Shown piece after piece: positions 536-17,173 of a stretch of 64,000 bases of DNA. Within the stretch, counting starts at the first letter, position 1. The number at the start of each line of letters is the position of its first letter. Under the pieces are notes generated by a model that made no database searches, had not been told where the DNA came from, and saw only the letters and a program-made list of their open reading frames with translations. The translations under genes were made by a program, and so were the position numbers. Origin of the DNA: Erythrobacter sp. (GTDB taxonomy: Bacteria > Pseudomonadota > Alphaproteobacteria > Sphingomonadales > Sphingomonadaceae); contig JAACTC010000008.1 in the NCBI GenBank assembly GCA_009993635.1, positions 1-64,000 on the forward strand. Reading direction: 5' to 3'.

Positions 536-605
536 GACCTGAACATAGTCGGGTCGGCACCAAATGCACATCCAGGCAATTCAGATACAGATGATGAAGG
601 GCCCC

Positions 606-1541: not shown

Positions 1542-1765
1542 GGGGTGTCTCCTGATCTGATCGCGGGGACAAGGAAGGGAGGCACCATTGCCTCGGCCCT
1601 GTCCGCCGGAGCCCGATCAGGGCCGGGACAAGGGGCGAGACGCACCGCGTAGCGGGAAACCTGCGGCCCTAGGCTGGCGCGGGCAACACGGGCCGACGGG
1701 ACGCAGGTTGCGGCGCGCCCCGACCGGCCCAAGGGCCTCTCTCGGCGGACAGGACCGAGGCAGGT

Positions 1766-2204: not shown

Positions 2205-2218
2205 CTACAGTCCCCTGT

Positions 2219-3148
2219 TCAAGCCGCTTCGGCGAGATCGAGGTCGGCCTCGCCTTGACAGGATTGGTAACCGCCAAGCTCAAGCAGCAGGCTCGCCGCT
2301 TCCTCGGCCTTGGCCGCAGCCGTCAGGATCGCACGGTCATCCGATTTGAGGATCTTGAGCCAGGACGCGATGTAGCTGGCGTGATGGTCGAGGTGGGTGA
2401 CCGGAAGACCTAGTTCGGCCCCGAGAATGGCCGAGGACAGCTCGGCGATGAGTTCCTCGGCAGCATAGGCTTCGCTGCCGAAGCGGTTCTTGAGATCGCG
2501 ATCGAGCCGCGAGGAATGCCCCGTCCAGTGCGACAGCTCGTGCGCGAGTGTCGCATAGTAGTGGTCATAAGCTTCGAAGAGCTCGGCTGGCGGCATGGTG
2601 ACGCGGTCGCGCAGGGGCTCGTAGTAGGCCTGCGCACCATGATGGCGCAAGTCGGCGCAGATATGGGCGAAGAAGGCATCGAGCCGGTCTTCGCGCCCTT
2701 CGGGCTCAAGCGCGGCAACCAGTGGCTTGGGATGATAAAATGCAGGGAGACCATCGCACTGGTCGGCGTTGAACACCGCATAGGCCTTGAGCACGCGCCG
2801 ATTCTCGGAGTCCGCTTCCCCTTCGGTGTTTTCGACTTCCTTGGTGTAGCTCTTGTAGAAGATCGCGCTGGTCGATTTCTCACCCTTGCGGACCTGTCCG
2901 CCGAGCTTCTGGCACTGGCGATAGGTCATCCAGTAGGGCGAGGCGTAGCCACAGCCGTCGGCCACCATCCACAACCAGAAGGTGTTCATGCCGCGATAGG
3001 GCGTCCCGCAGGAGCGCAAGGGCCGCGAGACGGGCACACCGCGCCACGGCTTGACCCAGGGCTTTGTGCCTTGCTCGAGCTTTTCGATGATGGCGGCGGT
3101 GATGCGCTGGGCAGGCGAAGTCGAAGCAGTGCGGCGGGACTTGGTCAT
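2219..3148 (-). CDS. ardC: ArdC-family antirestriction protein, zincin-like
   Basis: A 309-residue ArdC-type protein. An N-terminal ssDNA-binding domain (about 1-140, with the TKPWVKPW and YRGMN signatures) is joined to a zinc-metallopeptidase-like domain carrying HELSH at 203-207 and a downstream AAEELIAEL glutamate segment. ArdC of plasmid pSa binds ssDNA and protects incoming transferred DNA from restriction; the same role in conjugative entry is inferred here. The ATG at 3148 is chosen because AGGAGAA precedes it. An in-frame ATG at 3268 would prepend 40 residues and overrun the shared leader block. It lies downstream of parB in the minus-strand block, but the plus-strand cargo cassette separates them. 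Confidence 0.9.
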   Translation of the reverse strand: MTKSRRTASTSPAQRITAAIIEKLEQGTKPWVKPWRGVPVSRPLRSCGTPYRGMNTFWLWMVADGCGYASPYWMTYRQCQKLGGQVRKGEKSTSAIFYKSYTKEVENTEGEADSENRRVLKAYAVFNADQCDGLPAFYHPKPLVAALEPEGREDRLDAFFAHICADLRHHGAQAYYEPLRDRVTMPPAELFEAYDHYYATLAHELSHWTGHSSRLDRDLKNRFGSEAYAAEELIAELSSAILGAELGLPVTHLDHHASYIASWLKILKSDDRAILTAAAKAEEAASLLLELGGYQSCQGEADLDLAEAA

Positions 3149-3220
3149 GGGAGTTCTCCTGATCGCCGAGACGGACATGTCCCGGTTCAGGAAAAGCAAA
3201 AGCTCCCTCCCCTCTCGTCT
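3149..3220 (-). promoter_or_regulatory. Shared G/A-rich leader block before ardC
   Basis: On the minus strand a GAGAGGGGAGGGAGC block (3202-3216) lies about 54 nt upstream of the ardC start. It is followed by a variable stretch and the Shine-Dalgarno motif ATCAGGAGAAC. Closely similar blocks precede parB, the helicase and the primase genes of the same element. The role is unknown; a protein-binding leader or promoter element is possible. Confidence 0.5.
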
Positions 3221-3365
3221 AATGATGACGGCTTTGCCCCCTGATTTGAGCCATTCAGCGACGGCCACTGCGACCCCAAAAGCTGCTATTCTATTGCTGA
3301 TTTCTGTTGGTAGAATTCCCGCCGATTAACCTAGATTTTGAGGTGCTCTCGCCTATCTTTCTTCG

Positions 3366-4499
3366 ATGGCTGCGCAGCATCAACACTACGTTCCGAAACT
3401 CCTTCTTCGCGGCTTTCTCAGTGGTGATCCCGAGCGGGCATTGAAAGAGCAAGTTCACGTGCTCGATCTCGAAGCGGGGAAGTCCTTCCCGACGTCAATC
3501 GACAACATCATGGGTGAGCGTCGCTTCAACGAATTTTGGGTCGATGACGACGTGCTTGCGACTATCGAGCCATGGACAGGCCGCATCGAGTCTCATCTTG
3601 CCCCTATCATCGAACGGATCAGGTCGAGAAAGACGCTAGAGCGCACGCAAGAGGAAATTGCGAACCTCGCGTTTCTGATGGCCTTCCAGTTCGTAAGGAC
3701 CAAGGGCATGCGCCTTATGCCAGAGCGGATCGATGCTCAGCTTCGTCGGCATGTCAAACGCATGGGATTCGATCCAGCGAAGGTTGATGGTTTGATGAAC
3801 CTCGACGAGGAAGGCCTCAAGAAGGAGCATATTCGGCACCAGGTTCAGAATCTCGAGAAGTACGTCGAGATTATGGCCGAGAAGGAGTTCTTCCTGATGA
3901 CGCCGCCAGATGGGCGGTCATTCTACATCGGCGATCACCCTGTGGTGCTGCACAATGAGGAGCCAAGAACTGTGCATACAGGCCATCTTGGCATTGGGGC
4001 GGCCTATATCCAAATCTACTTGCCGCTCTCGTCGGACGTGCTGCTATGCGCATACGACAAGGCGGTGCTGGGCCAGATGATGAAGGCATCTGACGAAGCC
4101 CGCAACAAAGAGGTGGCGGGATATGCGCTGTCCAAGCTGATTGCCGGTGAGATTTCCGCCGCACAAATGAAGCAAGCTATCGATGCTGCTCGCGATCTCG
4201 ATCCGGTGGCGGCAATGATAAGGGCGATCAGAGCTGGTCAGCCGATTGCGGTCGGTCCCGAACAAGTCCAGTGTTACAACTCCTTGCAGGCATTCTTCGC
4301 ACATAGGTTCGTGATCGATCCTGACGATAGCTTTGCCGTTGCGCATGACATGATTGGTGAGAGAAAATCGGTCGGGCAGGACGAACAAGCCGATGAACCG
4401 GAAGACCTTGCCGCCAAGCATTTCTCAGAAACTGGCGTTTCGATGCCGGCAAAGCCAATCGCGGCCAAGCATGGATCAAAGGCGCGCCCAGCCCAATGA
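3366..4499 (+). CDS. DUF4238 domain protein, cargo-cassette gene 1
   Basis: A 377-residue soluble protein of the DUF4238 family. The N-terminal QHYVPKLLLRGF segment (residues about 6-17) carries the family's hallmark HYVP. A helical mid-region (AFLMAFQFVRTKG) follows, then the IGDHPVVLHN segment near residue 190 corresponding to the conserved family GDxPV. The molecular function of DUF4238 is not established. Members are frequent in genomic islands, which fits. The gene is on the plus strand against the element's minus-strand block, is visibly more AT-rich than its neighbours, and is followed 157 bp later by a second cargo gene in the same direction. I infer a two-gene accessory cassette, possibly defensive. 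No membrane segment or signal peptide is seen. Confidence 0.8.
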   Translation: MAAQHQHYVPKLLLRGFLSGDPERALKEQVHVLDLEAGKSFPTSIDNIMGERRFNEFWVDDDVLATIEPWTGRIESHLAPIIERIRSRKTLERTQEEIANLAFLMAFQFVRTKGMRLMPERIDAQLRRHVKRMGFDPAKVDGLMNLDEEGLKKEHIRHQVQNLEKYVEIMAEKEFFLMTPPDGRSFYIGDHPVVLHNEEPRTVHTGHLGIGAAYIQIYLPLSSDVLLCAYDKAVLGQMMKASDEARNKEVAGYALSKLIAGEISAAQMKQAIDAARDLDPVAAMIRAIRAGQPIAVGPEQVQCYNSLQAFFAHRFVIDPDDSFAVAHDMIGERKSVGQDEQADEPEDLAAKHFSETGVSMPAKPIAAKHGSKARPAQ

Positions 4500-4656
4500 T
4501 CGCGAAGCAGGCGCGAAAAGCCAAAACTCAATAAGTATTGCCGGAGGTCCCAAGTCCGCTTGGCACCCGCGTAGAAAGAACGCAGCCTTGGGTGCGCCCG
4601 GTGGATGTTCTTGCTTTATTCCTCCCGCTCATTCAAAGTTGCCCCGAGGTGGACCG

Positions 4657-6318
4657 ATGAAGAAATTTAGGAATCTGGAACGCTACCGGGTGGGTGGGAC
4701 GGATTCTAACATGAACCTTGCCGTCCAGCTCCCGCGCACACCTTCTGGGAGGACATATCGGTATTCGCCGAATGCAAACGCCCATCCGCGGCATTTTCTG
4801 ATCGGAGATGTTGTCGAAGGCTACGAGGTCAAACAAGAGGCACGCGCCCGCATGAAACTTGAGCCGCGTTCCAATCAGACCGTTTGCCCGTACAGTGGCG
4901 TAGTTGCTTCCGATGATGAGTTTACGCATCCTGAAGACCGACAGACGGGAATAGACACGGTAAGGCATGCGGCCGAAGAAGATATGCGCGCCCTCGTAGA
5001 CGACATGTTCAAGGATCTCGGCCGCAAATTCTCATCAAGCAAATCCATCTCGTTTAAGCCGGGCCCGAAGCGCAGCGCCAAGCCGAAGCCGCATTTTGTC
5101 CGCAGCGATCTCCTGCGGGAATTGGTCTGCGACCATTGCGGACGCGATTACGGCGTGTTTGCCATCGCGCTTTTCTGCCCTGACTGTGGTGCGCCGAACG
5201 TGCGACTTCATTTCCAGCGCGAACGAACGCTCGTTGGAGCACAGGTCGATCTTGCAGAAGCGCAAGGAGAGGGACTCGAAGAGTTGGCCTATCGCTTGCT
5301 CGGCAACGCACACGAAGACGTGCTCACGGCCTTCGAGGCGACGCTCAAGACTGTGTATCTGCACGGCATGAGAAACGCACCCGCCAAGCCGCCGAGGAAC
5401 GACTTCCAGAACATCGAGAAGGCTAAGAAGCGATTTGCCGAACTTGGCATCGACCCATTTCAGCATCTCACGTCAGGAGAACTGACGAAGCTTGAGCTCA
5501 ATATCCAGAAGCGCCACGTAATCGGGCATAATCTAGGTGTCATCGACCCTAAATTTGCCGATCATGCGCAGGAAGCAAAAGTTGGTGAGACAGTCCATCT
5601 TGTCGCTAGCGACATTCGAGAATTCGCCACGTTGTGCCAGAATGTCGTTGACGATCTGGATGCTTGGCTTGTTGGCGCAACCTCACCTACGGTGGGTCAG
5701 GAATTGCCGCCGCTCCTCGTGGCGTCACCTGCACACACCAATTCGTCAAACGAGCCTCTTTCGTTGGAAAATCTCGACGTGAGATTGAGCGGGCTGGCCC
5801 GTCAAGTCGCGCTTTGGTTCGCGAAGAAATCAACCAACGGGAGCCACCAAAATACGACAGCCGAAGGTGATGAGATTGTTGCGGCATTTCCAGATGCAGC
5901 CGAGCGTAGCATCGAAAAGGCGGTTGCGGAGTTAGAGGAAGAGGGATTCGTCACGACATCGGGTGGAATTGGCCGCAGAATTCCATTCATTTTTGCGACG
6001 ACCGATTTATTCGCGACGTTCGATCCGGTTGCATTGGGCACTGACCCATATGCGGATGCGGGCGAACTGATCGCCCGGATACTCGCTACCGTTGAAGGCG
6101 GAGAAGAGTCGATCGATCCGGCGAAGTTGCATGAAGGCCTTGGCTGGGAATTGCGGCGTTTCAACCCCGCTCTCGCAATCGTCATTGCGCATGTCGATTC
6201 CCGTCGCGTCAGCGACGAATACGGCGGCGAATATGTTGCACGGTATTTCTTCCTTCTTCCGGAAGACGAAATTGCCCTAGAGCGCCTTGCTGAAAGGCTC
6301 AAAGGGCGAAGCCAATAG
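4657..6318 (+). CDS. Zinc-ribbon protein with HEPN-like Rx4H motif and C-terminal winged helix, cargo-cassette gene 2
   Basis: A 553-residue protein of no family I recognise. Seen: an N-terminal region with two conserved-looking PxxH segments (1-140), a four-cysteine zinc ribbon (C158, C161, C174, C177), and a helical region about 205-340 holding RHVIGH (R286 to H291). This fits the Rx4-6H signature of HEPN ribonuclease domains within suitably placed helices. A region about 380-460 reads like a winged helix (EKAVAELEEEGFV), followed by an acidic C-terminus. The ATG at 4657 has GAGGTGG upstream; the open frame extends back to 4354 but overlaps the preceding gene. HEPN assignment and any toxin or defence role are inference. 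It ends before the parB terminator region. Confidence 0.7.
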   Translation: MKKFRNLERYRVGGTDSNMNLAVQLPRTPSGRTYRYSPNANAHPRHFLIGDVVEGYEVKQEARARMKLEPRSNQTVCPYSGVVASDDEFTHPEDRQTGIDTVRHAAEEDMRALVDDMFKDLGRKFSSSKSISFKPGPKRSAKPKPHFVRSDLLRELVCDHCGRDYGVFAIALFCPDCGAPNVRLHFQRERTLVGAQVDLAEAQGEGLEELAYRLLGNAHEDVLTAFEATLKTVYLHGMRNAPAKPPRNDFQNIEKAKKRFAELGIDPFQHLTSGELTKLELNIQKRHVIGHNLGVIDPKFADHAQEAKVGETVHLVASDIREFATLCQNVVDDLDAWLVGATSPTVGQELPPLLVASPAHTNSSNEPLSLENLDVRLSGLARQVALWFAKKSTNGSHQNTTAEGDEIVAAFPDAAERSIEKAVAELEEEGFVTTSGGIGRRIPFIFATTDLFATFDPVALGTDPYADAGELIARILATVEGGEESIDPAKLHEGLGWELRRFNPALAIVIAHVDSRRVSDEYGGEYVARYFFLLPEDEIALERLAERLKGRSQ

Positions 6319-6465
6319 GGACGCGAATCGGGAGAGGCGACAATCAGGCCGATAAGTCATGTGTTGGCCGATTGTTTCTCACGACTAGGGGAGTCATTTT
6401 TAGTCTCCTCCCGCCGCGGACGCCTTTGCAAGCCGACATTCCTCTTACGGCCCAAATTCTGACAT

Positions 6466-6502
6466 GAAAAAGGCGGTCCGTCCCAATTGGGACGGACCGC
6501 CC
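6466..6502 (-). terminator. Rho-independent terminator of the parB-like gene
   Basis: A perfect 13-bp inverted repeat (6472-6484 and 6489-6501) with an AATT loop is followed on the minus strand by TTTTT. It lies 30 bp after the parB-like stop. It therefore isolates the primase-helicase-parB transcript from the cargo cassette and ardC. Confidence 0.9.
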
Positions 6503-6530
6503 ACCGAGCGACCTCGACCTGTCAGGAGGG

Positions 6531-8504
6531 TCAGGCAGCCTGCTCGGCAATTTCGTCTGTCGCATCGTCGCTGACTGCCTCGTCGACTTCGACATCAATC
6601 TGCGCGACCTCCTGAGCAGCAGTGAACAGCATGATCGCAGGAACCCAGGCTTGCGCCCGCTCCTTGACCTCGGCCTCGCCGATGAAGTTGCCTGAGAAGA
6701 TGCGCTCGGCTGCGCTCGCAAGCTCAGCCTTCTTCGAAGCAGCGTATCGGCTGACCAGCTCCGGACCACCCGCAGCATCGAGCGCTTCGAGCGTGCGAGC
6801 CTTGGCCACGCGGTCGAAGTAGTTAGCAGCTGTGGGACGCCACCAATGCGCGGTCTCGATTTCGAGGAGCGAGCCGAGTGCCTCGTGCATCGGCACCGAG
6901 CGTTCGCCTTCACAGGCAAGGCTGGCGACGAGCGTGCGCGAGACGACATGGCCGAGCCAGGCCGAGCGCGCCTCGTCGGAAAGCGCCCGGAACTCCGCGA
7001 ACCGCTCGACATCGCTTTCGCCAGAACGCCAACTTTCATCGAGTGAACGTGCGAACTCGGCCAAAGCTGCACTCGCCGGTGCATCCTTGGCCTCGAACCC
7101 GGAAACCGGGCCAGACGCGACCGAGCCGACGAGCGTCGACGCCTTCCTAGAACGCCAGTCGTGCCCATCGGCATCGGCGAGCGTGAAGACCATGAAATCG
7201 AGCGCCAGTGCCGGATCGTTGGCGAGATGGATTGCCAGGATGTCACGACGTTGCATCGCGAGCTCGTCGAGCAGGCGCTGGGACAGCGAGCTCGCCTTGG
7301 GTTTCGCCGCTTCGATTTCCTCAATGGCCTCGACCACGCCTTCGTCAGCGACGACCTCTGTCTCGGTATAGAACTGCGGAACCAATGTCGGCTCGCCATT
7401 GCGCGAAAGCACGAGGAAGGCGCCGGCTTCGGGTTTCAGCTCGTCGGCGAGTACCGGCGGCCGATCGGTGAGGTCTCGCATGGCACGGTCGATCGCCACG
7501 AGCTCCTGTTCAGCCTTGGCGACCTCGTCTTCGTCGCTGTCCTCGTCTTCGAGAATGGCGGCGACGCGGTCGTAGTCCGCTTCGAGGTCGCTAAGCTCCT
7601 GCGCTTCCATTTCGGTTATGGGTGCAGGTTCGCAGGGCAGACGGCCCAAACCTTCGACAAGGTCATGGCTGACATAGTTGCCAAGCGTCGGCCGCACCCA
7701 GGCAAGGCCGTATTCAAGCGCGGTCTTTTCAGCCGCTTCTTCCATGGCCTTGTGCGCGAGGTCCTCGAGCAGCGCGACATCGATCCAGCTCTCGCTGGCG
7801 TCATCGTCGAACAGTTCGCGCTCGATCCGGCCACCCGCGCCGAGGTAGGCATCGCGTCCGACAAGCACAGCTCGCGGATCGGAACCGCGCACCGTGGCAT
7901 CAAGCACCATGCGGCGGATCGTGTCAGGCGTGATCTGGTACCAGGCGTCTTGCAGCTCGGCATAGACATGCGCCTGGCGCTCGATGTCGGAGATCGCGCC
8001 GTAGGCCTTGGCCATGTCGAGCGTGATCGTGCCTTCCGCGAGGGCTTCGAAGACGCAAGGCGCGAGAGCAGCCAAGCGCAGACGTCCTTCGACGAAGCGG
8101 ACAGTGAGGCCGAAGCGGCGTGCCACGTCTTCGGTGGTAGCCCCCGCCTCGATGATGGAAGCGAAGGCCTGCGCCTCGTCGGCCGGATTCATCGCGAGAC
8201 GCTGGAAGTTCTCGGCAAGGCTGGCTTCGCGCACTTCGCTCTCCTCGCCCTCGATGACGAGGCAGGTGACCTCGTGGTTTTCGGGCAAGGTGCCCTCTTC
8301 GGCCAGCGCCTGCAGCGCGGCGAGACGGCGACCGCCGGCCTCGACGTCGAACCTGCCGCGCTTTCCTTTGCGCACGACGAGGTTCTGCAACAGGCCGCGC
8401 GCAGCGATATCTGCCCGCAGCTGGAGGTCGGCCAGCACGTCGCTCGACTTGCGCACGTTGCGCGGGCTCGGGACAAGCTTCTTCAAGGGGATCGACTGGA
8501 TCAT
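6531..8504 (-). CDS. ParB/RepB/Spo0J-type DNA-binding protein
   Basis: A 657-residue protein, much longer than a chromosomal ParB (about 300). The first 90 residues are a ParB nuclease-like domain (IPLKKLVPSPRNVRK start, then the GGRRLAALQAL box and ENFQRLAMNPADEAQAF). A helix-turn-helix region (TTEDVARRFGLTVRFVEGRLRLA) follows, then a long acidic tail of unknown role. ParB-like proteins of this size are typical of sphingomonad conjugative plasmids and integrative elements, usually without a neighbouring parA; none is visible here. The start at 8504 is set by ATCAGGAGAAC; an upstream in-frame ATG at 8582 lies inside the shared leader. Role in partition or in transcription of the element is inferred. 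Confidence 0.85.
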   Translation of the reverse strand: MIQSIPLKKLVPSPRNVRKSSDVLADLQLRADIAARGLLQNLVVRKGKRGRFDVEAGGRRLAALQALAEEGTLPENHEVTCLVIEGEESEVREASLAENFQRLAMNPADEAQAFASIIEAGATTEDVARRFGLTVRFVEGRLRLAALAPCVFEALAEGTITLDMAKAYGAISDIERQAHVYAELQDAWYQITPDTIRRMVLDATVRGSDPRAVLVGRDAYLGAGGRIERELFDDDASESWIDVALLEDLAHKAMEEAAEKTALEYGLAWVRPTLGNYVSHDLVEGLGRLPCEPAPITEMEAQELSDLEADYDRVAAILEDEDSDEDEVAKAEQELVAIDRAMRDLTDRPPVLADELKPEAGAFLVLSRNGEPTLVPQFYTETEVVADEGVVEAIEEIEAAKPKASSLSQRLLDELAMQRRDILAIHLANDPALALDFMVFTLADADGHDWRSRKASTLVGSVASGPVSGFEAKDAPASAALAEFARSLDESWRSGESDVERFAEFRALSDEARSAWLGHVVSRTLVASLACEGERSVPMHEALGSLLEIETAHWWRPTAANYFDRVAKARTLEALDAAGGPELVSRYAASKKAELASAAERIFSGNFIGEAEVKERAQAWVPAIMLFTAAQEVAQIDVEVDEAVSDDATDEIAEQAA

Positions 8505-8580
8505 TGTTGTTCTCCTGATGGAATGAAGGCGCAGGTGAGGATCACGAGGCCCACAAGCCCAAAGGGCTCCCTCCACTCTC
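8505..8580 (-). promoter_or_regulatory. Shared G/A-rich leader block before parB
   Basis: The minus strand has GAGAGTGGAGGGAGC (8566-8580) about 62 nt upstream of the start, then ATCAGGAGAAC directly before it. This is nearly identical in sequence and position to the ardC leader. Confidence 0.5.
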
Positions 8581-8609
8581 ACCTTTGTGATTGGGGTCTG
8601 CCCGAGGTA

Positions 8610-11600
8610 TCAGGCGGCAAGCGCGGGGAGGACCGACGAGGCTCTCGACACCGGCACGAACAGCCGCGTGCGGTAGCGGATGATCTCGGTGAAGCAGCCT
8701 TTGCCCTTGTACCAGTCGAGCCGATCAGGCGAGAAGCCGGTCAATTCAAGGCGCTGTTCCCCGCCGACCAGCGATCGCTTCACAGTGAGTGGATCGTGGC
8801 TTGCGAGGCTCAGCGGTTTCCCGCTTGCGATGACAAGCCCGCCGATCTGGTCTGGCGTCGGACCGGTAATCCCGGAAAGGCCAAAGGTCTCGGCGATGGC
8901 TGCGAAATCGACTTCGAGCACTTCGCGCCCGATGATCGACTGTCCATCCTCGGCAACGAGCCGGGTGACGCGGACATGATCGCCGGGCAGGCGTTTCCAG
9001 ACCGGCAGCAGCAGCCCGGCGGCGAGATGGACGCGCTCGGTCACCGGTGAAGCGGCAGCTTCTTCTTCCTCGGCGCGCCAAGCGCTTGTGAACGCAGTGG
9101 CGCCAATTTCTTCCCAGTGGCTTTCATCGAGTGCTTCAAGCGTCCAGTTCGCGGATTTGAGCGGACGCAGCAGACGCCGGCGCTCGATCACGGCCCCGTC
9201 ATCGGCGATGAGGCGCCGGGCAGGAACCGACAGCGCGACCTTTCCCGAACGCGCATTGCGCATCGGGATCGCGTGGGGGCTGCCGATCTCGTGCATCCGC
9301 ACCAGGCGCTGCAATCGCAGGGGCCGAAGGTGCCTGGTCACTTCGAGCGAGACGAGGCGGGTTTCCGCTCCGGTCACGGGGTCTGTGCGCAAGAGTTCAT
9401 CTGCTAGGGCCGCGAAGCGATCCACCCTGACGGTTTCCAGTCCCTGGTCGAGCGTTCCCGCTTCGCGCGCGGCTTCGATCCGCGCTTCGACGAGGCCCAG
9501 ATATTCATCAAAGATCGCGTTCTGCAGCGCAATCGGCAGGGCGAGGATACGGTTGAGCCAGCGCTGGATCGTAGGGAGATTATCGGTCAGTCCGCCATCG
9601 GGGTTTTCGAGTCGGAGACCGGTCCTCTCGACGAAGTTGCCGAAAGTGGTGGCTTCGAGCTTGCCGTCATAGAGCAGCTGGAACCAGCGGCTGAGCGCGT
9701 CGCGCGCATAATCACTCTCGAGATTGTCGGCCGGGTCGAACAGGTTCTGTCCGCCAGTCTGGCGCTGGCCGCGCGTAAGCGCGCCCAGTGCATCGAGCCT
9801 GCGCGCAATGGTCGAGATGAACCGGCGCTCACCCTTCACGTCAGTGGTCACCGGCCGGAACAGTGGAGCCGAGGCCTGGTTGGTGCGGTTGGTGCGGCCA
9901 AGGCCCTGGATGGCGTTGTCGGCGCGCCAGCCCGGTTCGAGCAGGAAATGGACGCGGCGCTGTTGGTTCCTGCAACCAAGGTCGGCATGGTAGGAGCGCC
10001 CCGTGCCACCCGCATCTGAGAAGACCAGGATGCGCTTGGTCCCTTCCATAAAGCTCTTCGCTTCGGCGACATTGGCGCTGGGGCTTCGCCGTTCGAGGCG
10101 CTGCTGACCATCGCGTCCCAATACCAGCCTGCGGGTCCGGCCCGTGACCTCGGCCACAGCCTGGGTCCCGAAGTGCTCGATAATCGCGTCGAGCGCGGTG
10201 GCGATTGGCGGCAGCGCGCAGAGTTGTTCGATCAGCGCATCGCGCGCGGCTACGGCGCGGGGGCAGAAAACGGGATTGCCCTCGTCGTCGCTCATCGCCT
10301 CGGAACGCAGATTGCCGTCCTCATCGGTGAAGACCTGCATCAGACGCACCGGAAAGCTCTTGGTGAGGTAGTCGATGACGTACTCGCGCGGGGAGAGATC
10401 GATATCGAGCGCTTCGCGTTCCTCGTCGGAGAAGTCGGCAAGGCGCCGGTCGAGCATGGCCTCGGCGGTCGAGACCAGCTGCACGACCACCGAATGGTCC
10501 TCGCCAAGCGCCGCTTCCATCGCGGGGATCAGGCTCGGCAGTTTCATCGAGAGCAGGAGTTGGGCAAAAAACCGCTGCTTGGTGCCTTCGAAGATCGACA
10601 GCGCCGCAGCCTTTGCGTTGCGGTTGAGGGTATCGCCGCTGTCCTCGTCGACCACCCGCGTTGCCTCCAGTGCCGCTTCGAGGTTGCGGTGAATGATCGC
10701 CCAGGCATCGGCATAGCCATCGTAAATCCGCACTTGTGCTTCGGTCAGGCAATGTTCGAGGATCTCGTACTCGACCCCGGCGAAGGACAGCGCACGGGCA
10801 AGATAGAGGCCCTGGGCCTTGAGGTCGCGGGCAACGAGTTCCATCGCCGCCACGCCGCCGGCGCGGATCTCGGTCATGAATGCTTCGTGGGTCGGAAAGG
10901 CGGTCTCGGGTCCCCACAGGCCAAGCCGGGAGGTGTAGCCAAGATTGGCGATATCCGAGGCGCCGGTAGCAGACGCGTAGAGCACGCGGGCGCGCGGCAG
11001 ATGATTCTGTAGTCTGAGGCCCGCCATGCCCTGTTCGGAGCCTTTGACCTTGCCACGGCTCGAGGAGGACCCGAGCGCATTGGCCATGGCGTGGGCTTCA
11101 TCGAAGGCGATCACACCGTCGAAACTCTCACCCGCCCAGGCAAGGATCTGATCGAGCCGCGTATCCTCGGCGCGCCCCGAGCGCAGCGTCGGATAGGTGA
11201 CGAAGAGAATGCCTTCGGACATCGTTACGGGGTGGCCGAGTTTCCAGCGCGAGAGCGGCTGAAGATCGAGCGGCAGCCCGCCAAGTGCTTCCCAGTCGCG
11301 GCGTGCATCTTCAAGCAACGCCTCGTTCTTGGTGATCCACACATGACGACGCTCGCCTGTGAGCCACCGGTCCATAATAACCGCTGCGATCTGCCGTCCC
11401 TTGCCCGCTCCGGTCCCGTCGCCAAGGAAGAAGCCTTGGCGGTATGCGTTCCCATCCTCGGACAATTCCAGCGAGGTGCCTTCCTGGCTGACTTTGAACT
11501 GACCTGGGAGATCGCGCGCGAATGCCTGGGCAGCGTAGACCAGTGTCTCGCATTGCGCTTCGGACAATAGACCATTGGCCTGCCAACCTGCGGGGAGACG

Positions 11601-12857
11601 CGGACTAACTTCCGGCTGCGGAGCCGCGACCGAACCCATGGCGACCGATTCCACGAGCGGGGTGGGGTGAACCGGCGCGCCTTCGAATGCGATGCGGCTT
11701 GGCCGGTAGGGGAGATAGATACCTGTCTGTTCGGGAACCGGCGCGGGATCGGCGAGGACCGAATAGGCAAGGTCGATCGCATTCGCTGTGACTGCTGGTG
11801 TCACTGCGAAAGGCGCCAACGGCCGGACCGGCTTGCGTTGGGTCGAAGTCTTGCCAACGAGGCGCATTGGCTTGCCGACTGGCAGGCAATGGAGGCTGGC
11901 GGATGTTTGCGCACGTCGCGGAAGCTCGGTGACTAGCTCGTGGAGCGCGATCAGGTCACCGGTACCTCCGGTGATCGCTGGCGCAGGCGCAGCCGACACT
12001 TTATCGATGACGACCAGGCGAACAGCGATTCCCGTACCCGTCCGGCGAAACATCTGCTGCAGGTGCACATCGAAAAGCAGCGATGCTTCATCCTGCGCCT
12101 TGGCGAAAGTGGAAGCATCGAAGCCTTCGGGCATTATGGCGACAATCCTTACGCCATTAGCAGCGGCCCGGATTGCACTGCGAAGGTGGCGCTGCGCCGT
12201 CTCACCGTCCATGCCGCGTTCCTGGCTGCGAGCGAATGGCGGATTCATCAGAACGACCGACGGAAGCGGGCCGCGATGCAGGTCAGCGATCAGTTCACCG
12301 TCGTGCGCGGTGATCGTGGCCGAAGCGAAGATGTGGCTCAGGCTGTATCGTCTTGCCGGATCGATCTCGTTGAGGAGCAGCGAGGCCTTCTGGACGCTCC
12401 CCCAGAGAGCAAGGGCACCATTGCCAGCGGACGGTTCGAGTAGCGTGTCTTGCGCAGAGATGGCTGCAGTCTTCGCCATCAGCCAGGCGAGCATCGGCGG
12501 GGTAGAGAATTGCTGAAGTTCGACCTGTGCTTCACTGCGAACATGCCGGGGCGGCAAGGCTGCTTCGAGCCAGTCGAAGCGCGCTTCTGCTTCATGCACG
12601 CTTGTCGCCAGATCGATGCGCGAAGACTCTCGAAGCCAGAGCAGTGTGCCGATCTCGACCGCGTTGTTGTAGTCGTCGATGGTCCAGGCACTTCCCCAGT
12701 GCTGGGCACCAGTTTCTTCGACGAACAGGCCGGAAATGTCGGCCCGAGTAAGATGACGCCCCGAGGCGAGAAGCGCGGCAACCCGGGCGCCGATAGCGTA
12801 GGCCAAGAGTACTGACGGGAGCTGCCCGCTGGCAGGAAACAGATCTGATTGAAGCAT
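8610..12857 (-). CDS. N6-adenine methylase / strawberry-notch-type superfamily 2 helicase fusion
   Basis: A 1415-residue fusion. The N-terminal part holds a class I SAM-dependent methyltransferase with EPSAGNGALALW (141-152) and catalytic NPPF (205-208). The C-terminal part is a strawberry-notch-like SF2 helicase with Walker A GTGAGKGR (481-488), DEAH (586-589) and a motif-VI-like GRTNRTNQ in the C-terminal half. Such fusions are common in plasmids and integrative elements of alphaproteobacteria. Their role (DNA protection, replication or gene control) is not established. The ATG at 12857 follows an ATCAGGAGGAC box. It is 105 bp before the parB start and 75 bp after the primase, with the same leader type. 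All catalytic motifs look intact. Confidence 0.88.
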   Translation of the reverse strand: MLQSDLFPASGQLPSVLLAYAIGARVAALLASGRHLTRADISGLFVEETGAQHWGSAWTIDDYNNAVEIGTLLWLRESSRIDLATSVHEAEARFDWLEAALPPRHVRSEAQVELQQFSTPPMLAWLMAKTAAISAQDTLLEPSAGNGALALWGSVQKASLLLNEIDPARRYSLSHIFASATITAHDGELIADLHRGPLPSVVLMNPPFARSQERGMDGETAQRHLRSAIRAAANGVRIVAIMPEGFDASTFAKAQDEASLLFDVHLQQMFRRTGTGIAVRLVVIDKVSAAPAPAITGGTGDLIALHELVTELPRRAQTSASLHCLPVGKPMRLVGKTSTQRKPVRPLAPFAVTPAVTANAIDLAYSVLADPAPVPEQTGIYLPYRPSRIAFEGAPVHPTPLVESVAMGSVAAPQPEVSPRLPAGWQANGLLSEAQCETLVYAAQAFARDLPGQFKVSQEGTSLELSEDGNAYRQGFFLGDGTGAGKGRQIAAVIMDRWLTGERRHVWITKNEALLEDARRDWEALGGLPLDLQPLSRWKLGHPVTMSEGILFVTYPTLRSGRAEDTRLDQILAWAGESFDGVIAFDEAHAMANALGSSSSRGKVKGSEQGMAGLRLQNHLPRARVLYASATGASDIANLGYTSRLGLWGPETAFPTHEAFMTEIRAGGVAAMELVARDLKAQGLYLARALSFAGVEYEILEHCLTEAQVRIYDGYADAWAIIHRNLEAALEATRVVDEDSGDTLNRNAKAAALSIFEGTKQRFFAQLLLSMKLPSLIPAMEAALGEDHSVVVQLVSTAEAMLDRRLADFSDEEREALDIDLSPREYVIDYLTKSFPVRLMQVFTDEDGNLRSEAMSDDEGNPVFCPRAVAARDALIEQLCALPPIATALDAIIEHFGTQAVAEVTGRTRRLVLGRDGQQRLERRSPSANVAEAKSFMEGTKRILVFSDAGGTGRSYHADLGCRNQQRRVHFLLEPGWRADNAIQGLGRTNRTNQASAPLFRPVTTDVKGERRFISTIARRLDALGALTRGQRQTGGQNLFDPADNLESDYARDALSRWFQLLYDGKLEATTFGNFVERTGLRLENPDGGLTDNLPTIQRWLNRILALPIALQNAIFDEYLGLVEARIEAAREAGTLDQGLETVRVDRFAALADELLRTDPVTGAETRLVSLEVTRHLRPLRLQRLVRMHEIGSPHAIPMRNARSGKVALSVPARRLIADDGAVIERRRLLRPLKSANWTLEALDESHWEEIGATAFTSAWRAEEEEAAASPVTERVHLAAGLLLPVWKRLPGDHVRVTRLVAEDGQSIIGREVLEVDFAAIAETFGLSGITGPTPDQIGGLVIASGKPLSLASHDPLTVKRSLVGGEQRLELTGFSPDRLDWYKGKGCFTEIIRYRTRLFVPVSRASSVLPALAA

Positions 12858-12934
12858 GGCAATTCGTCCTCCTGATTGGGGCATCGGGACACGCCCTTTG
12901 CCGGATCAGGAAATCGAGAAGCCCTCTCTCCTCT
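12858..12934 (-). promoter_or_regulatory. Shared G/A-rich leader block before the helicase gene
   Basis: On the minus strand GAGGAGAGAGGGCTTCT (12918-12934) lies about 62 nt upstream of the start and is followed by the ATCAGGAGGAC ribosome-binding box. This is the third member of the leader family. Confidence 0.45.
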
Positions 12935-13847
12935 ACGGGGCCGCTTTGCGGCGCAGCCATGCTATCAGCTCATCATTCCAGTCAGTATCGCGTGAAGATG
13001 GCTTGCGGACCTGGATCGTCCGCCCTTCCTGTGCGTAGGCTGCCAGGCCATGCAACGCGGCCAGCTCGCCGCCAGCATCATGATCGACGAAGAGATGAAG
13101 CTCGGTCACGCTCTCGGGCACGCTGACGAGTCCGAAGCGCTCATTGCCCAAGGTCGCCCAGACGGGAATACCGGTAAGAGCATAGGCCGACATCGCGCTC
13201 TCGATACCCTCGCCGAGGCCGAGCTTGCCGGAAGCCGGAGCCAGGAGGCGGACAGCAGCTTCACCGAGGGCGCCAAGCGCACGCTTCGGCTTGTCGAAAG
13301 CGGCCTTGGTACAGTCCTCGCCCGACAGGAAAGTGCGGTGGATGGCGACAGGTCCCTCGTCGAGGCTGACCGCCGCAATCATGGCGGGCAGAAAGCGGGT
13401 TCGTCCTTTCGGGCCGAGAGGTGTTCGCGGATGAAAGCGAAGAGCGGAAGATGCGGCGAGGATGCCGCGCCTCTCAAGATAGGCCTTTGCCGGACTGGCA
13501 CGCAGTGGCTGTGCTTCGTGCCAAATCCTCAGTGCTGCCGCCGACGGCTTGCTATTTCTAGTCGGCTCGGAGTGGTCGGCAGCCGTAGGCCCTGAGAAAA
13601 GCGCACCTGCCTCGAAACCTTCACACGCCAATGCGGACAGCACGCTCTGCTGATCGCATCCCGCAAAGCAATGGAACAGGATGGCCCGTCGACCGAGCGA
13701 CACACCGAGTGACGGCGTACGGTCATCATGCGCAGGGCAGCAGGCCATGCCCTTTGTGCCGGACCATTTGCCCCCTCGCGATTCGCAAATGCGACTGGCG
13801 GTCTCGACAAGCGACCGGTTGGGATGAGTTTGGACAGACAGGGACAT
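12933..13847 (-). CDS. Toprim-domain primase-like protein with CHC2-type zinc finger
   Basis: A 304-residue protein. The N-terminal zinc finger has C36/C37-P-A-H40 and C60-x3-C64, as in phage and plasmid primases. The C-terminal half is a toprim domain with GEGIESAMSA (metal-binding glutamate) and VDHDAGG (DxD). Expected to synthesise primers for element replication, or for the transferred strand after conjugation. It is shorter than DnaG and lacks a helicase-interaction domain. It is the first gene of the minus-strand block and is divergent from the lytic transglycosylase gene, with a LexA-like box between them. Its leader has GAGAGGAGAGGAAC at about 40 nt and GAGGAG before the start. Confidence 0.85.
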   Translation of the reverse strand: MSLSVQTHPNRSLVETASRICESRGGKWSGTKGMACCPAHDDRTPSLGVSLGRRAILFHCFAGCDQQSVLSALACEGFEAGALFSGPTAADHSEPTRNSKPSAAALRIWHEAQPLRASPAKAYLERRGILAASSALRFHPRTPLGPKGRTRFLPAMIAAVSLDEGPVAIHRTFLSGEDCTKAAFDKPKRALGALGEAAVRLLAPASGKLGLGEGIESAMSAYALTGIPVWATLGNERFGLVSVPESVTELHLFVDHDAGGELAALHGLAAYAQEGRTIQVRKPSSRDTDWNDELIAWLRRKAAP

Positions 13848-13900
13848 GCGAGCTCCTCAGCATGCAAAGTGGCCGCCTCATCAGCGTTCCTCTCCTCTCC
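13848..13900 (-). promoter_or_regulatory. G/A-rich leader block before the primase gene
   Basis: On the minus strand GGAGAGGAGAGGAAC (13886-13900) lies about 40 nt before the start, with GAGGAG near the ATG. It resembles the other three leaders but is closer to the gene and less similar. Confidence 0.35.
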
Positions 13901-13936
13901 CAAAGGCAGGCATTCGCGGCTTTCCTACAGGCATAT

Positions 13937-13951
13937 GTTCTATTTATGTTC
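13937..13951. promoter_or_regulatory. Candidate LexA (SOS) box, GTTC-N7-GTTC
   Basis: GTTC at 13937-13940 and 13948-13951 are separated by exactly seven AT-rich bases. This is the direct-repeat LexA box described for alphaproteobacteria. It sits in the divergent control region between the primase block and the lytic transglycosylase operon, 34 bp before the latter's start. Direct repeats of TATGTTCTAT surround it. One or two such matches are expected by chance in a window this size, so position is the main support. Confidence 0.5.
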
Positions 13952-13985
13952 TATATCGATTCGAATCAATGGAGCACCAATCGAG

Positions 13986-14570
13986 ATGACCTGCCTCAAT
14001 CGTCTGACCGCGATAGCGGTCGCCTGTTTGGGAATGATCGCGACCTCCTCACAGCAAGTCCGCGCCCAGGATTTCACCTTGTTCGAGCACGCGATCGTTC
14101 AGCCGCAGCCAGAGCCGCAACCAGCAAGGCAATATCTTCCTGCGATCTATCAGGCCGGGCCAGCAGACGTTTCCTACCGGGAAGGCCTGTATATCGTGGC
14201 AATAGCCGAGGCCGAGCGCCGGTACGGGCTTCCGACAAATCTGCTCCGTGCCCTCATCTGGGCAGAATCCCGCTTCAATCCGATGGCTGTGAGTCCAGCT
14301 GGCGCTGCCGGACTTGCTCAGCTTATGCCGGCCACGGCGCGAGAACTGGGCGTCCGGAACCGTCATGACCCCCTTTCATCGATCGACGGTGGTGCCCGGT
14401 ACCTTCGCGACATGCTGGACCGGTTCGACGCGGTCCACCTAGCCTTGGCTGCTTACAATGCCGGCCCAGGTGCCGTCTCCCGATCTCGCGGCATCCCGAA
14501 CAATGGTGAAACGCCGCAATATGTCCGGTCTGTGTTGGGACGTTGGCAGGCAATTGGCACATACAATTGA
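13986..14570 (+). CDS. Secreted lytic transglycosylase, VirB1-like
   Basis: A 194-residue protein with a signal peptide (residues 1-27, ending VRAQ) followed by an SLT domain. The catalytic glutamate is in WAESRFNP, with GLAQLMPATA and YNAGPGAV, the three hallmarks of family 1 transglycosylases. It cleaves peptidoglycan in the periplasm; beside an integrase and DNA-processing genes it probably opens the wall for a type IV secretion channel, as VirB1 does. The start at 13986 gives a clean signal peptide; an ATG at 13935 lies inside the LexA-like box. First gene of the four-gene plus-strand operon. Confidence 0.88.
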   Translation: MTCLNRLTAIAVACLGMIATSSQQVRAQDFTLFEHAIVQPQPEPQPARQYLPAIYQAGPADVSYREGLYIVAIAEAERRYGLPTNLLRALIWAESRFNPMAVSPAGAAGLAQLMPATARELGVRNRHDPLSSIDGGARYLRDMLDRFDAVHLALAAYNAGPGAVSRSRGIPNNGETPQYVRSVLGRWQAIGTYN

Positions 14571-14634
14571 CGAAACTGCCTGATTTCTGGCTAGTGTCTG
14601 AGAGTATATGCCGGAATGAAGACGGACAAAGCCA

Positions 14635-15186
14635 GTGAATGAGACGCCCGGTGAACCGTTCGACTTTCGTAGAGCGTTGAAGGCACAGAAGCGCCGGAAG
14701 CTGAGAAAGGAGATCGCGTTGGGTCTGGGTGGTTTCGCAATCGTTTTTGCGGGAGGGATGCTGGCACTCAATTGGCCACTCCATGATGCCAACCTTGCTA
14801 ACGCCGACCAGCCTCCTCAGGCATTATTCCAGCAAGCGAGCTCCCCACAATTCGACATCTGCGGGTCCATCCGGCGCACATGCGTCGTGGATGGAGATAC
14901 TTTCTGGCTTGATGGCACAAAGATCCGCATTGCTGACATCGATACTCCCGAGATCAGCGAGCCTCGTTGCGACTATGAATACGAACTCGGCATGCGAGCG
15001 ACACATCGCCTTGTCGAATTGCTTAATGCCGGACCGTTTGAACTCAGGACCATCGGGAGCAGAGATGAGGACCAGTACGGTCGCAAATTGCGGGTTGTAA
15101 CGCGCGGCGGCCGCTCGCTTGGCGATCAGCTGGTCAGCGAAGGGCTGGCGCGGACCTGGACCGGGAGACGTGAGCCATGGTGCTGA
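14635..15186 (+). CDS. Membrane-anchored thermonuclease-family (SNase-like) protein
   Basis: A 183-residue protein with a basic cytoplasmic start, one membrane segment (about 27-47) and a staphylococcal-nuclease-like domain: VDGDTF, IDTPE, DQYGR and GLARTW, which include the metal and catalytic positions. Expected to cut nucleic acid at the outer face of the inner membrane. Similar genes are typical neighbours of conjugation genes, but their role there is unproven. The stop overlaps the next gene's start region by 10 bp, indicating translational coupling. Confidence 0.85.
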   Translation: MNETPGEPFDFRRALKAQKRRKLRKEIALGLGGFAIVFAGGMLALNWPLHDANLANADQPPQALFQQASSPQFDICGSIRRTCVVDGDTFWLDGTKIRIADIDTPEISEPRCDYEYELGMRATHRLVELLNAGPFELRTIGSRDEDQYGRKLRVVTRGGRSLGDQLVSEGLARTWTGRREPWC

Positions 15187-15371
15187 ACCGCGACCAGGAA
15201 TTGTGGGCCGTCGCGCTTTGGGTCGAAAAGAACCATGGCGAAGATGGACCCGCGTATATCGCGCAGCAGATCCAGCGACTATCCAACGATGGGGACGAGG
15301 CAGGCATAGCCACATGGAGAACAATTGCTGAGCGCTTCGATCAGCTTAATTGCCAAAGCTCCACGAACTGA
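15177..15371 (+). CDS. DUF6961-like small protein (64 aa)
   Basis: A 64-residue protein beginning RDQELWAVALWVEKNHG and continuing through a helical GPAYIAQQI and ATWRTIAERF. I recall this as the DUF6961 family of short sphingomonad proteins of unknown function. The ATG at 15177 overlaps the nuclease gene by 10 bp, so it is co-expressed with it. It has no membrane segment. Confidence 0.7.
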   Translation: MVLNRDQELWAVALWVEKNHGEDGPAYIAQQIQRLSNDGDEAGIATWRTIAERFDQLNCQSSTN

Positions 15372-15382
15372 GGCTCGGGACG

Positions 15383-15487
15383 ATGCGGAAATGGCTTCGA
15401 GACTGGGGCGTCAGAATGGAGTTCGCCTTGCTGGCGTCAGTGTCTCTGCTGGGGCTGATCCTGAGCCTTCAATCCTGCACTGGCTGA
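15383..15487 (+). CDS. Single-pass membrane micropeptide (34 aa)
   Basis: A 34-residue peptide starting MRKWLRDWG, then a hydrophobic helix (about residues 13-28, FALLASVSLLGLIL) and a SCTG end. It begins 12 bp after the preceding stop, in the same direction, with a GAGG-like box overlapping that stop. It ends 21 bp before the convergent integrase gene. Gene-like spacing and a clear basic-then-hydrophobic pattern support it; function is unknown. The cysteine near the C-terminus is not a lipobox. Confidence 0.5.
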   Translation: MRKWLRDWGVRMEFALLASVSLLGLILSLQSCTG

Positions 15488-15507
15488 GAAGAAATTCGAT
15501 CTCAAGA

Positions 15508-16731
15508 TCAACCCTGCGCAAACTTGCCCTTGATGACCTTTCCTCCGGTCCCGAGCTCATCGAGGTAGTCGCTCCACCATTGAGCCATGCGCACACGCTC
15601 GTCCCAATGTTTGCCGCGATGATAGATGCCGCGCACGACGTTGCTGTCGCCATGCGCCAGGGCACGCTCGATTGCATCCGGATTCCAAAGTCCAGACTCG
15701 TTCAGGAATGTTGATGCCGTCGCCCGGAGTCCATGAGCGGTAACTTCATCCTTTGAATATCCCATGCGACGGAATGCGGCATTCAAAGTGTTTTCGCTCA
15801 TGGGACGCTTGGAGCTGCGCGCAGACGGGAACACATATCCTTCGTGGCCGAGCATCTCGGCCAGGTCTGTGAGATAGCCGACAACCTGCTTGGAAAGCGG
15901 AACGGCATGCGCTCGGCGCGCTTTCATTTTGCCGGCAGGTATTTTCCACACGCCATCGACAAGGTCGATCTCGTGCCATTCGGCGTGCCGGAGTTCGCCG
16001 GGGCGCACGAACACATGCGGCGCGATCTGCAAAGCGAACTTCGTGACCATGTATCCGGTGTAGTCGTCGATTGCGCGCAGAAGCCCGCCTAGCTCGGTGG
16101 GCTCGAGGATTGCTGCGTAATGCGTGGCTCTCGGCGTTACGAGAGCGCCCTTCAGCATGCTGGTCGGATCGGATTTGCAACGGGTGGTTGCAACACCGTA
16201 GCGAAACACGCGGCCTGCGAACGACCGGCACTTCTTTGCAGTCTCGTGCTTGCCAGTGGCTTCCAGCCGCTTGAGGGGAGCCAGGACTTCGAACGGCTCG
16301 ATCTCGTTGATGGGTCGGTTCCCGATGGCAGGTGCAAGCTGGTCGAGGAAATAATTGGCCTTGACGATCGTGCCCTGGGCGCGGCCATTCTGAACCATCA
16401 TCTGTTCAATATACTCACGTGCGACTGCCTCGAACGTCTGCGCAGAAAGAAACTCCTCGCGGATCTTCCGCTTCCGCTTCTCAAAGGCCGGGTCGCTCCC
16501 AGAGGCAACAGCCTGGCGCGCCTCGTAGGTTGCGTCTCGCGCTTGCTTGAGGCTGACCTCGGGATAGCTGCCGATTGCGAGCTTCTTCTCGATCTTGCCG
16601 ATCCGGTACCGGAAGCGCCATAGCTTGCCGCCAGCAGGCGTGACCTCGATATAGAGGCCGCGCTGGTCAGCGACCTTGTAAGGCTTGTCTTTCGTCTTGA
16701 GGGCGCGAAGCCGAGTCTCGGTCAGAGGCAT
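15508..16731 (-). CDS. int: P4-type tyrosine integrase of the element
   Basis: A 407-residue tyrosine recombinase with the N-terminal DUF4102 arm-binding domain (LTETRLRALK, GGKLWRFRYR, GSYPEVSLKQAR) and a C-terminal catalytic domain. Visible catalytic residues: arginine in RPGELR, histidine and arginine in HGLRAT, and tyrosine in GIYHR. It catalyses site-specific integration and excision. The gene lies next to the 3' end of tRNA-Leu, the usual target of this family, so the element's attachment site is almost certainly there. The ATG at 16731 (MPLTETR) matches the family start; an in-frame ATG at 16833 would add 34 non-conserved residues. It is full length. Confidence 0.95.
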   Translation of the reverse strand: MPLTETRLRALKTKDKPYKVADQRGLYIEVTPAGGKLWRFRYRIGKIEKKLAIGSYPEVSLKQARDATYEARQAVASGSDPAFEKRKRKIREEFLSAQTFEAVAREYIEQMMVQNGRAQGTIVKANYFLDQLAPAIGNRPINEIEPFEVLAPLKRLEATGKHETAKKCRSFAGRVFRYGVATTRCKSDPTSMLKGALVTPRATHYAAILEPTELGGLLRAIDDYTGYMVTKFALQIAPHVFVRPGELRHAEWHEIDLVDGVWKIPAGKMKARRAHAVPLSKQVVGYLTDLAEMLGHEGYVFPSARSSKRPMSENTLNAAFRRMGYSKDEVTAHGLRATASTFLNESGLWNPDAIERALAHGDSNVVRGIYHRGKHWDERVRMAQWWSDYLDELGTGGKVIKGKFAQG

Positions 16732-16733
16732 GT

Positions 16734-16782
16734 GCGGGCCTTTTCCCAATGTGGTTTTCGCAAAGGCCCGCAAAAGGCCCGC
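16734..16782. repeat. Three copies of AAAGGCCCGC at the integrase start
   Basis: AAAGGCCCGC occurs at 16762-16771 and 16773-16782 as direct repeats 1 nt apart, and in inverted orientation at 16734-16743 immediately before the integrase ATG. The first and third form a 10-bp perfect inverted repeat with an 18-nt loop. Such iterated sites next to an integrase gene suggest binding sites for the integrase arm domain or an autoregulator; this is inference. Confidence 0.55.
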
Positions 16783-16879
16783 AAAAATGTCTGGAACCCC
16801 CGAGAACAGACGGGACGATCCGGAACGATCCAAGGGCCAAATCCCTAGGATTTCTGCGGGTTTTATAGATTATCCGAGA

Positions 16880-16894
16880 GAACAAGAGAAGAAC
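16880..16894. promoter_or_regulatory. Candidate LexA (SOS) box, GAAC-N7-GAAC, upstream of int
   Basis: GAAC at 16880-16883 and 16891-16894 are separated by seven bases. In the other orientation this is GTTC-N7-GTTC, the alphaproteobacterial LexA consensus. It lies 149 bp upstream of the integrase start, directly beside the tRNA 3' end. LexA control of integrase is known for some integrative elements; here it is a sequence-only inference. Confidence 0.45.
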
Positions 16895-16897
16895 AAA

Positions 16898-16925
16898 TGG
16901 TGCCCAGAAGAGGACTCGAACCTCC
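16898..16925 (-). other. Probable attachment site at the tRNA-Leu 3' end
   Basis: The 3' part of the tRNA gene (T-arm, acceptor strand and CCA) faces the integrase gene. P4-type integrases typically recombine within this part, and the intact tRNA is regenerated at the integrase end. The exact core cannot be set without the far junction, which should repeat part of this stretch. Confidence 0.6.
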
Positions 16926-16984
16926 ACGACCTTGCGATCGCCGCCACCTGAAGACGGTGCGTCTACCAATTCCGCCATCTGGGC
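16898..16984 (-). tRNA. tRNA-Leu (anticodon CAG)
   Basis: An 87-nt gene with encoded CCA. The acceptor strand begins GCCCAGA and pairs with TCTGGGC. The D-arm GCGGAATTGGTAGACGC is typical of leucine tRNA. The anticodon loop TTCAGGT gives CAG, closed by CCGTC/GGCGG with one G-T pair. There is a long variable arm as expected for class II tRNA, and the T-loop GGTTCGAGTCC is canonical. It is intact and marks the boundary between the element (left) and the chromosome (right). Confidence 0.97.
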
Positions 16985-17034
16985 ACACGAGGCAGCCCGG
17001 TCATCTTCGTCCGGGGCCTAGGGTAGGCGCGGGC

Positions 17035-17063
17035 CACTAGCGGAGGGTGACCCACCCTGTCAA
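17035..17063 (-). promoter_or_regulatory. Probable tRNA-Leu promoter
   Basis: A perfect TTGACA -35 on the minus strand (17063-17058) is followed after 17 nt by CTAGTG (17040-17035). This lies about 50 nt upstream of the tRNA 5' end. The -10 is weak against the enteric consensus. Confidence 0.45.
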
Positions 17064-17173
17064 CGCAAATAGAGCGCATCGGTCGGTCTTGCGGCGCTGG
17101 CCGCCATCCGGCAAAGCGACTTGCACGCATTGCGTACCGCCCACCCGCTTACCCCGCCGAGAAAGGCCCCTCT

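Follow-up and report, generated by a model that had tools for sequence, protein, structure and literature searches.

Predicted LexA operators at the transfer genes of a family of integrative and conjugative elements in the Sphingomonadales

The integrase end of an integrative element in Erythrobacter

The stretch of DNA considered here (the window; positions 1 to 64,000 of the forward strand of contig JAACTC010000008.1, assembly GCA_009993635.1) is the opening 64 kb of contig C11 in the 2.9-Mb, 18-contig genome of Erythrobacter sp., and its beginning is, as relatives indicate, the integrase end of an integrative and conjugative element (ICE) inserted in tRNA-Leu(CAG). The integration target is the tRNA-Leu(CAG) gene (16898-16984, minus strand), with an attachment core GAGTCCTCTTCTGGGCACCATTT (16895-16917, minus strand) that was deduced from L206 and L207, assigned to a related element as its two ends. 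Between this attachment site and the integrase gene int lies site 2, GTTCTTCTCTTGTTC (16880-16894, minus strand), a LexA-type match whose second half is not conserved throughout the family; the tyrosine integrase itself (15508-16731, minus strand) has Arm-DNA-bind_3, Phage_int_M and Phage_integrase domains and a likely start at the ATG of position 16731. Farther into the element, site 1, GTTCTATTTATGTTC (13937-13951, plus strand), is a LexA-type operator candidate upstream of an operon that begins with a lytic transglycosylase with an SLT domain (13986-14570, plus strand; "VirB1-like" in our own naming) and continues on the same strand with a thermonuclease-like protein with an SNase domain (14635-15186). 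A conserved companion motif, TTTCCTACA (13921-13929, plus strand), stands 7 bp before site 1 and may be a -35 element or a second regulator site, and a DUF7146/Toprim primase-like protein (12933-13847, minus strand) is encoded divergently from the transglycosylase. Motif matches were placed inside or between genes with our own codon-usage caller, which misses the transglycosylase itself.

An initial annotation of the window had singled out these two sites as exact matches to GTTC-N7-GTTC, and both are present. It had also put site 2 upstream of the integrase beside the attachment site, where it indeed lies, 149 bp before the likely int ATG and three bases from the 3' end of tRNA-Leu(CAG).

The LexA motif of the host and the standing of the two sites

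The direct repeat GTTC-N7-GTTC, which is found in the window, marks the LexA regulon of the Alphaproteobacteria and its SOS response (PMC3323433; PMC12907096). That it is the LexA box of this host genome as well is indicated by the company it keeps. The host encodes a LexA in which Pfam finds the LexA DNA-binding domain, and intergenic exact matches precede lexA, recA, uvrA, uvrD, imuA-imuB, radA and rmuC, and also two radical-SAM genes, of which one carries the name of a putative DNA modification/repair protein. In relatives, a box precedes lexA in 30 of 30 loci fetched from the 59 genomes that gave a match; for imuA, with 41 such genomes, it does so in 29 of 30. The imuA boxes of L307, L311 and L320 are identical to site 1 in every letter. 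The imuA label rests on a weak NCBIfam match below the curated cut-off together with the next gene, ImuB being judged by eye. Joint induction of lexA, recA, radA and imuAB-dnaE2 has been described for anaerobic Sphingopyxis granuli (PMC6472365).

The initial annotation had expected one or two chance matches in 64 kb, a figure that agrees with a mean of 1.91 in shuffled sequence. The window holds four exact matches, two of them (20811 and 37067) within genes, and four or more occurred in 13 of 100 shuffles. A genome-wide scan for the exact motif gave 61 matches, against 33 for a reversed control motif; 18 are intergenic, those before SOS genes included, 42 fall inside genes and one at a gene edge. 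Raw counting of the motif was rejected as a means of deciding, and since the bare consensus is too weak for that purpose a matrix was built. It has 23 columns and was derived from the lexA, imuA and seven other SOS promoters of the host, with no element site included; left-one-out scores cover only those seven sites, which are the genome's own sites besides lexA and imuA. In the 64 kb, site 1 ranks first (29.6 bits) and site 2 second (25.2), with third place at 12.5. The left-one-out scores were 20.5 for recA and 19.3 for uvrA, with weaker values for uvrD (9.1), radA (14.8) and the second radical-SAM gene (15.5). Scores equal to those of sites 1 and 2 were reached in none of 100 first-order Markov simulations of the window and in none of 4000 simulations of the two intergenic regions themselves. 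Where the annotation had rested its argument on the joint placement of the two matches, the placements hold, but it is matrix quality rather than number that sets these sites apart.

Site 1 and the transglycosylase promoter

Conservation of site 1 was followed in 110 loci (L059-L168, the window itself being L139), of which 80 were collected through the integrase and 30 through the transglycosylase, with overlap between the genomes; 19 have no SLT match, leaving 91 to be scored. An exact box occurs within 160 bp of the transglycosylase start in 89 of the 91, including loci whose proteins share only 56-65% identity. The aligned loci comprise 56 distinct upstream sequences in which much of the flanking sequence varies and site 1 is kept; the 63 aligned columns come solely from loci with an exact box, so that their invariance is conditional on the 89 of 91. 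One of the two exceptions, L126, is rearranged, with box and companion motif elsewhere in the locus, and the other, L127, has a different upstream region. The site had been assigned to the divergent region between primase and transglycosylase, which is where it is located, but it belongs with the transglycosylase promoter rather than with the primase: among 11 loci without a primase match, some of them short, 10 retain TTTCCTACA, box and transglycosylase behind a different preceding sequence, and the box is therefore ascribed to the transglycosylase side. On these grounds site 1 is predicted with high confidence to be a LexA operator.

The companion motif TTTCCTACA is retained in about 90% of the distinct transglycosylase upstream sequences. 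Similar motifs occur near most boxes of the element, both in the window and in promoters of the related genome G174 (L221, L222), at variable distance and orientation; a role as a fixed -35 element was rejected because the distance to the box varies between promoters. In nine loci (L079, L082, L084, L085, L090, L093, L098, L130 and L142) the sequence before the motif resembles, by eye, what precedes the promoter of the pilin and type IV secretion system (T4SS) genes, as if a deletion had fused the transglycosylase and pilin promoters at a common TTTCCTACA. The interval from site 1 to the start of the transglycosylase includes the largely conserved GATTCGAATC (13958-13967), which contains two adjacent GANTC sites of the CcrM type. 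A search for plasmid relatives of the transglycosylase returned 343 records, none above 80% identity, and in the three plasmid genes examined neither box nor TTTCCTACA motif was found in the 300 bp upstream.

Further boxes at the secretion, pilin and regulator genes of relatives

The initial annotation had spoken of two control points. Both sites are real, but they appear to be only part of a set, since relatives hold boxes at T4SS/pilin and regulator genes as well. The related element in G174 continues beyond the part represented in the window with the genes for single-stranded DNA-binding protein (SSB), a TraD-like coupling protein (TrwB_AAD_bind), a TrwC-type relaxase, an S24 protein, a HipA-like protein (a fragment, below the cut-off) and a T4SS operon that runs from TraG_N to TraL and a TrbC/VirB2-like pilin, the last of which falls slightly short of the Pfam cut-off; SSB and several of the intervening names were judged by eye, and "F-type" for the T4SS and "MOBF" are our own naming. 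In 80 kb of G174 there are seven matches of at least 18 bits, where 0.07 would be expected, and all seven are confined to the interval from the attachment site to the T4SS regulator gene: at int, at the transglycosylase, about 400 bp before TraD (with one mismatch), at the S24 gene, at 38.7 kb where there is no clear gene, at the pilin/T4SS operon, and at a divergent regulator (HTH_31, below the cut-off). The integrase end in G192 retains sites 1 and 2 and has one more match, of 18.0 bits, in 67 kb, its pilin match being on another contig.

A search of 396 genomes of the order found relatives of the pilin in 75. Two boxes, one directed to the pilin and one to the divergent gene, were found upstream in 30 of 30 fetched loci, which were not preselected for the box. 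Among 29 distinct sequences all 16 GTTC columns are invariant, and in the divergent box none of the seven spacer positions is constant. Forty further pilin places divide sharply. Where a TTCCTACA-like motif is present, 16 of 17 have an exact box (L379 has an imperfect one only) and 13 of 17 have the pilin-adjacent box; where it is missing, 22 of 23 have none (L381 offered only 141 bp of upstream sequence). The same division is seen in the 16 genomes behind the named loci: 15 have a pilin match, and of 20 loci 16 carry both boxes and all four motif-less ones are without a box. Qipengyuania sp. ABI-127-1, with an integrase of 98% identity, likewise has a pilin gene preceded by both boxes. Box presence thus follows the element's TTCCTACA motif, and the operators are a property of this element family rather than of the T4SS in itself. 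Many of the pilin loci without boxes are on contigs of plasmid size, although in these drafts a plasmid location is unproven, and a search for the pilin in plasmids gave no match.

It is apparent from these comparisons that the larger finding is a predicted LexA-type regulon across the transfer genes of a family of conjugative elements. That the element carries its own set of operators for the host LexA, through which SOS would directly derepress transfer, seems to us a good deal more probable than any other account. The wider proposition, that a widespread conjugative element family of the Sphingomonadales has joined the host SOS regulon, with LexA repressing the pilus and T4SS, the transglycosylase operon, the regulators and, in one clade, the integrase, whereas related transfer systems elsewhere mostly have no operators, is one that we hold to be evenly poised.

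Site 2 between operator and attachment arm

The proposal that these sites are LexA boxes finds support for site 1 in its identity with host SOS boxes and its conservation, but for site 2 it meets a part of the integrase family in which the site is not conserved. The strongest competing explanation, to which we give somewhat less than an even chance, is that site 2 is part of the attachment arm and not a LexA box, its first GTTC being an integrase-related feature beside the core and its second a clade-specific repeat. Two places 96 kb apart in G035, taken to be the ends of an element with an integrase of 82% identity, have GAGTCCTCTTCTGGGCACCATTT in common and then diverge (L207 as the distal end is a deduction), which puts the GTTC of site 2 just outside the core on the element side. 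Of 81 integrase-chosen rows, the window included, 78 are of the attachment type (L100, L129 and L134 have no attachment pattern), and in all 78, at 63-100% integrase identity and with or without a box, GTTC stands three bases after CACCA. Below 60% identity it is kept in 11 of 15, none of the 11 boxed, and L172, L181, L197 and L208 have no GTTC beside the core; the fetch pattern itself held GTTC with two mismatches allowed. The first half-site is kept where there is no box and must therefore have another reason to exist, and the 11-bp repeat period of site 2 would also suit integrase arm sites. The second GTTC is present in 58 of the 78; in the remaining loci, 20 in number, its place is taken by GGAACA, GAAGAAC or a comparable sequence.

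Against an arm site stands the quality of the box where it occurs. All variants among the 58 loci, the window included, score 20.4-25.2 bits, level with the left-out recA and uvrA, and even where integrase identity is as low as 76% the second GTTC is fixed while the bases to either side of it differ. At least three changes of the box are needed on the integrase tree. Taken together, these observations make site 2 a probable, clade-specific LexA box.

Several neighbouring observations concern the same junction. In sister integrase clades (L097, L099, L101-L114) an inverted repeat of the GTTC...GAAC type replaces the direct repeat that the window has beside the core (16880-16900). In Erythrobacter fulvus (L100) an integrase copy without a tRNA end has a strong upstream box (25.9 bits), reflecting another insertion site or a rearrangement. 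In G427 two different integrases of the family (L200, L201) are 23 kb apart on a single contig, each beside a copy of the tRNA-Leu end, probably as a tandem integration. In G353, of the same genus, other sequence follows the tRNA and the fetched flank has no integrase match.

The S24 protein as a reader of the boxes

A second explanation, which we consider unlikely, is that an S24 (SetR-like) repressor encoded by the element uses the boxes as its operators. This repressor would mimic or share the LexA motif, and either RecA would act through S24 instead of LexA or both proteins would compete. The S24 protein is present at 75-100% identity in 30 of 32 genomes (31 chosen by their pilin match plus the window's own), and its gene is preceded by a box in all 30 fetched loci. 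The stretches expected for self-cleavage are kept: 29 of 30 proteins have ASAGFGA, and the serine stretch (GDSM/GESM) and lysine stretch (VVKR) are present in all 30. SetR of the SXT element has a helix-turn-helix plus S24 layout and a similar length (PMC4542580). Against this, Pfam recognizes the LexA DNA-binding domain in the host LexA and no helix-turn-helix family in the N-terminus of the S24 protein, the sites are matched by a matrix derived solely from host LexA promoters, and SetR operators are partly dyad-symmetric (PMC4542580) where those here are direct repeats. In G379 boxes occur at the transglycosylase and the pilin (L146, L247) although the best S24 match is only 42% identical; the weak point of this case is that the genome is a draft of 10 contigs. 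Since the self-cleavage stretches are retained, a second, SetR-like layer of control through S24 is likely, in addition to that predicted for host LexA.

Chance matches in AT-richer intergenic DNA are a most improbable source: the number of exact matches is within the shuffled range and most genome matches are in genes, but no simulation, local intergenic composition included, gave matrix scores this high, and for site 1 the conservation contradicts chance.

A model for SOS control of transfer

If host LexA reads the boxes, it would in the unstressed cell sit on site 1 and block the transglycosylase-nuclease operon, and in relatives it would also occupy the pilin/T4SS operon, the divergent regulator and the S24 repressor gene. 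DNA damage would lead RecA to trigger self-cleavage of LexA, opening these promoters, upon which the envelope would be prepared and the mating pore made; in the clade of the window, site 2 would in addition free the integrase from repression and so lead to excision. The element, which belongs to marine alphaproteobacteria, would probably be woken by DNA damage in this way and leave for another cell.

Several observations weigh against such a model. A consensus scan for sigma-70-like promoters at sites 1 and 2 found none, which leaves an overlap of box and promoter unsupported. At the pilin box six of the seven spacer columns are also invariant, so that conservation there is not specific to GTTC. 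The second GTTC of site 2 is missing from 20 of the 78 loci, the box being absent in sister clades. Most of the remaining element, including a close S24 copy, was not found in the window's own assembly, and the wider set of boxes comes from relatives only. Lastly, the boxes could in reality be read by the S24 protein that the element encodes.

Backbone and extent of the element

The backbone in the window comprises a strawberry-notch-type helicase (AAA_34, Helicase_C_4; 8610-12884, minus strand), a ParB-family protein (6531-8582, minus strand) and an ArdC-type antirestriction protein (2219-3268, minus strand). Between the last two, at 3366-6318, is cargo consisting of a DUF4238 protein and a 654-residue frame without a Pfam match; G174 has other genes in the same interval, among them one with a HATPase domain and some that resemble helicases by eye, so that the interval looks like a hot spot for cargo. 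The contig starts inside the element, window position 1 falling just after the place of the SSB gene in G174. The T4SS of the window's genome is represented by one lone 4.1-kb contig (L234, G000:C8), 94% identical to that of G174. The integrase lies at a tRNA with an attachment core, the core being deduced from a relative and the element's own distal end falling outside the assembly; no second attachment copy was found in window positions 1-17100 or in the genome at the sensitivity of the search. In the G174 stretch the relaxase, the coupling protein and the T4SS follow downstream, and the distal end was not found in its 80 kb.

Comparison with known systems and significance

Control of mobile elements by the SOS response is well precedented. 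The promoters of integron intI genes are under LexA, which places a mobile-system recombinase behind a LexA box; integrons are not conjugative, however, and in the present family the integrase box is the least conserved of the set. One of the two nearest parallels is SGI1, in which, of six putative LexA sites, that at the promoter of the activator genes sgaDC was confirmed by electrophoretic mobility shift assay and that at sgiAT was not, and for which SOS induction is described (PMC9927553). There host LexA reads the box of an integrative element directly and SOS starts the transfer programme, as is predicted from sequence here. In SGI1, which is an integrative mobilizable element, the box stands at the master activator, whereas those described here stand before pilin/T4SS, transglycosylase and regulator genes, with another motif and in another bacterial class. 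The other, the SXT/R391 family, likewise consists of ICEs with a protein of the S24 type for which a trigger by DNA damage is presumed, but there the cleaved repressor is the CI-like SetR with its own partly dyad operators (PMC4542580), and the boxes here match host LexA. The motif is the same as in the alphaproteobacterial SOS regulon (PMC3323433; PMC12907096), and here it is found also before the transfer genes of an element. Putative LexA sites with no significant effect on conjugation are reported for an IncI1 plasmid (PMC12211044), no LexA box was found near three transfer genes of pRAS1 (PMC3340321), and for Sphingopyxis granuli ICEs are proposed, the present element not being named among them (PMC4741004). 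A search of the open-licence literature by titles and opening abstract lines found, among the papers listed, no description of an element of this kind with LexA boxes on its T4SS or transglycosylase promoters. SOS-controlled elements are already known; a distributed design with direct control by LexA was not found in the literature searched.

In the best-known cases considered here SOS control passes through a repressor of the element (SXT) or through one activator (SGI1). If the predictions made here are true, repression of the structural operons for transfer by host LexA itself would link conjugation with DNA damage in a large number of sphingomonads, and the homologous T4SS loci without boxes would offer a natural comparison for when such control is gained.

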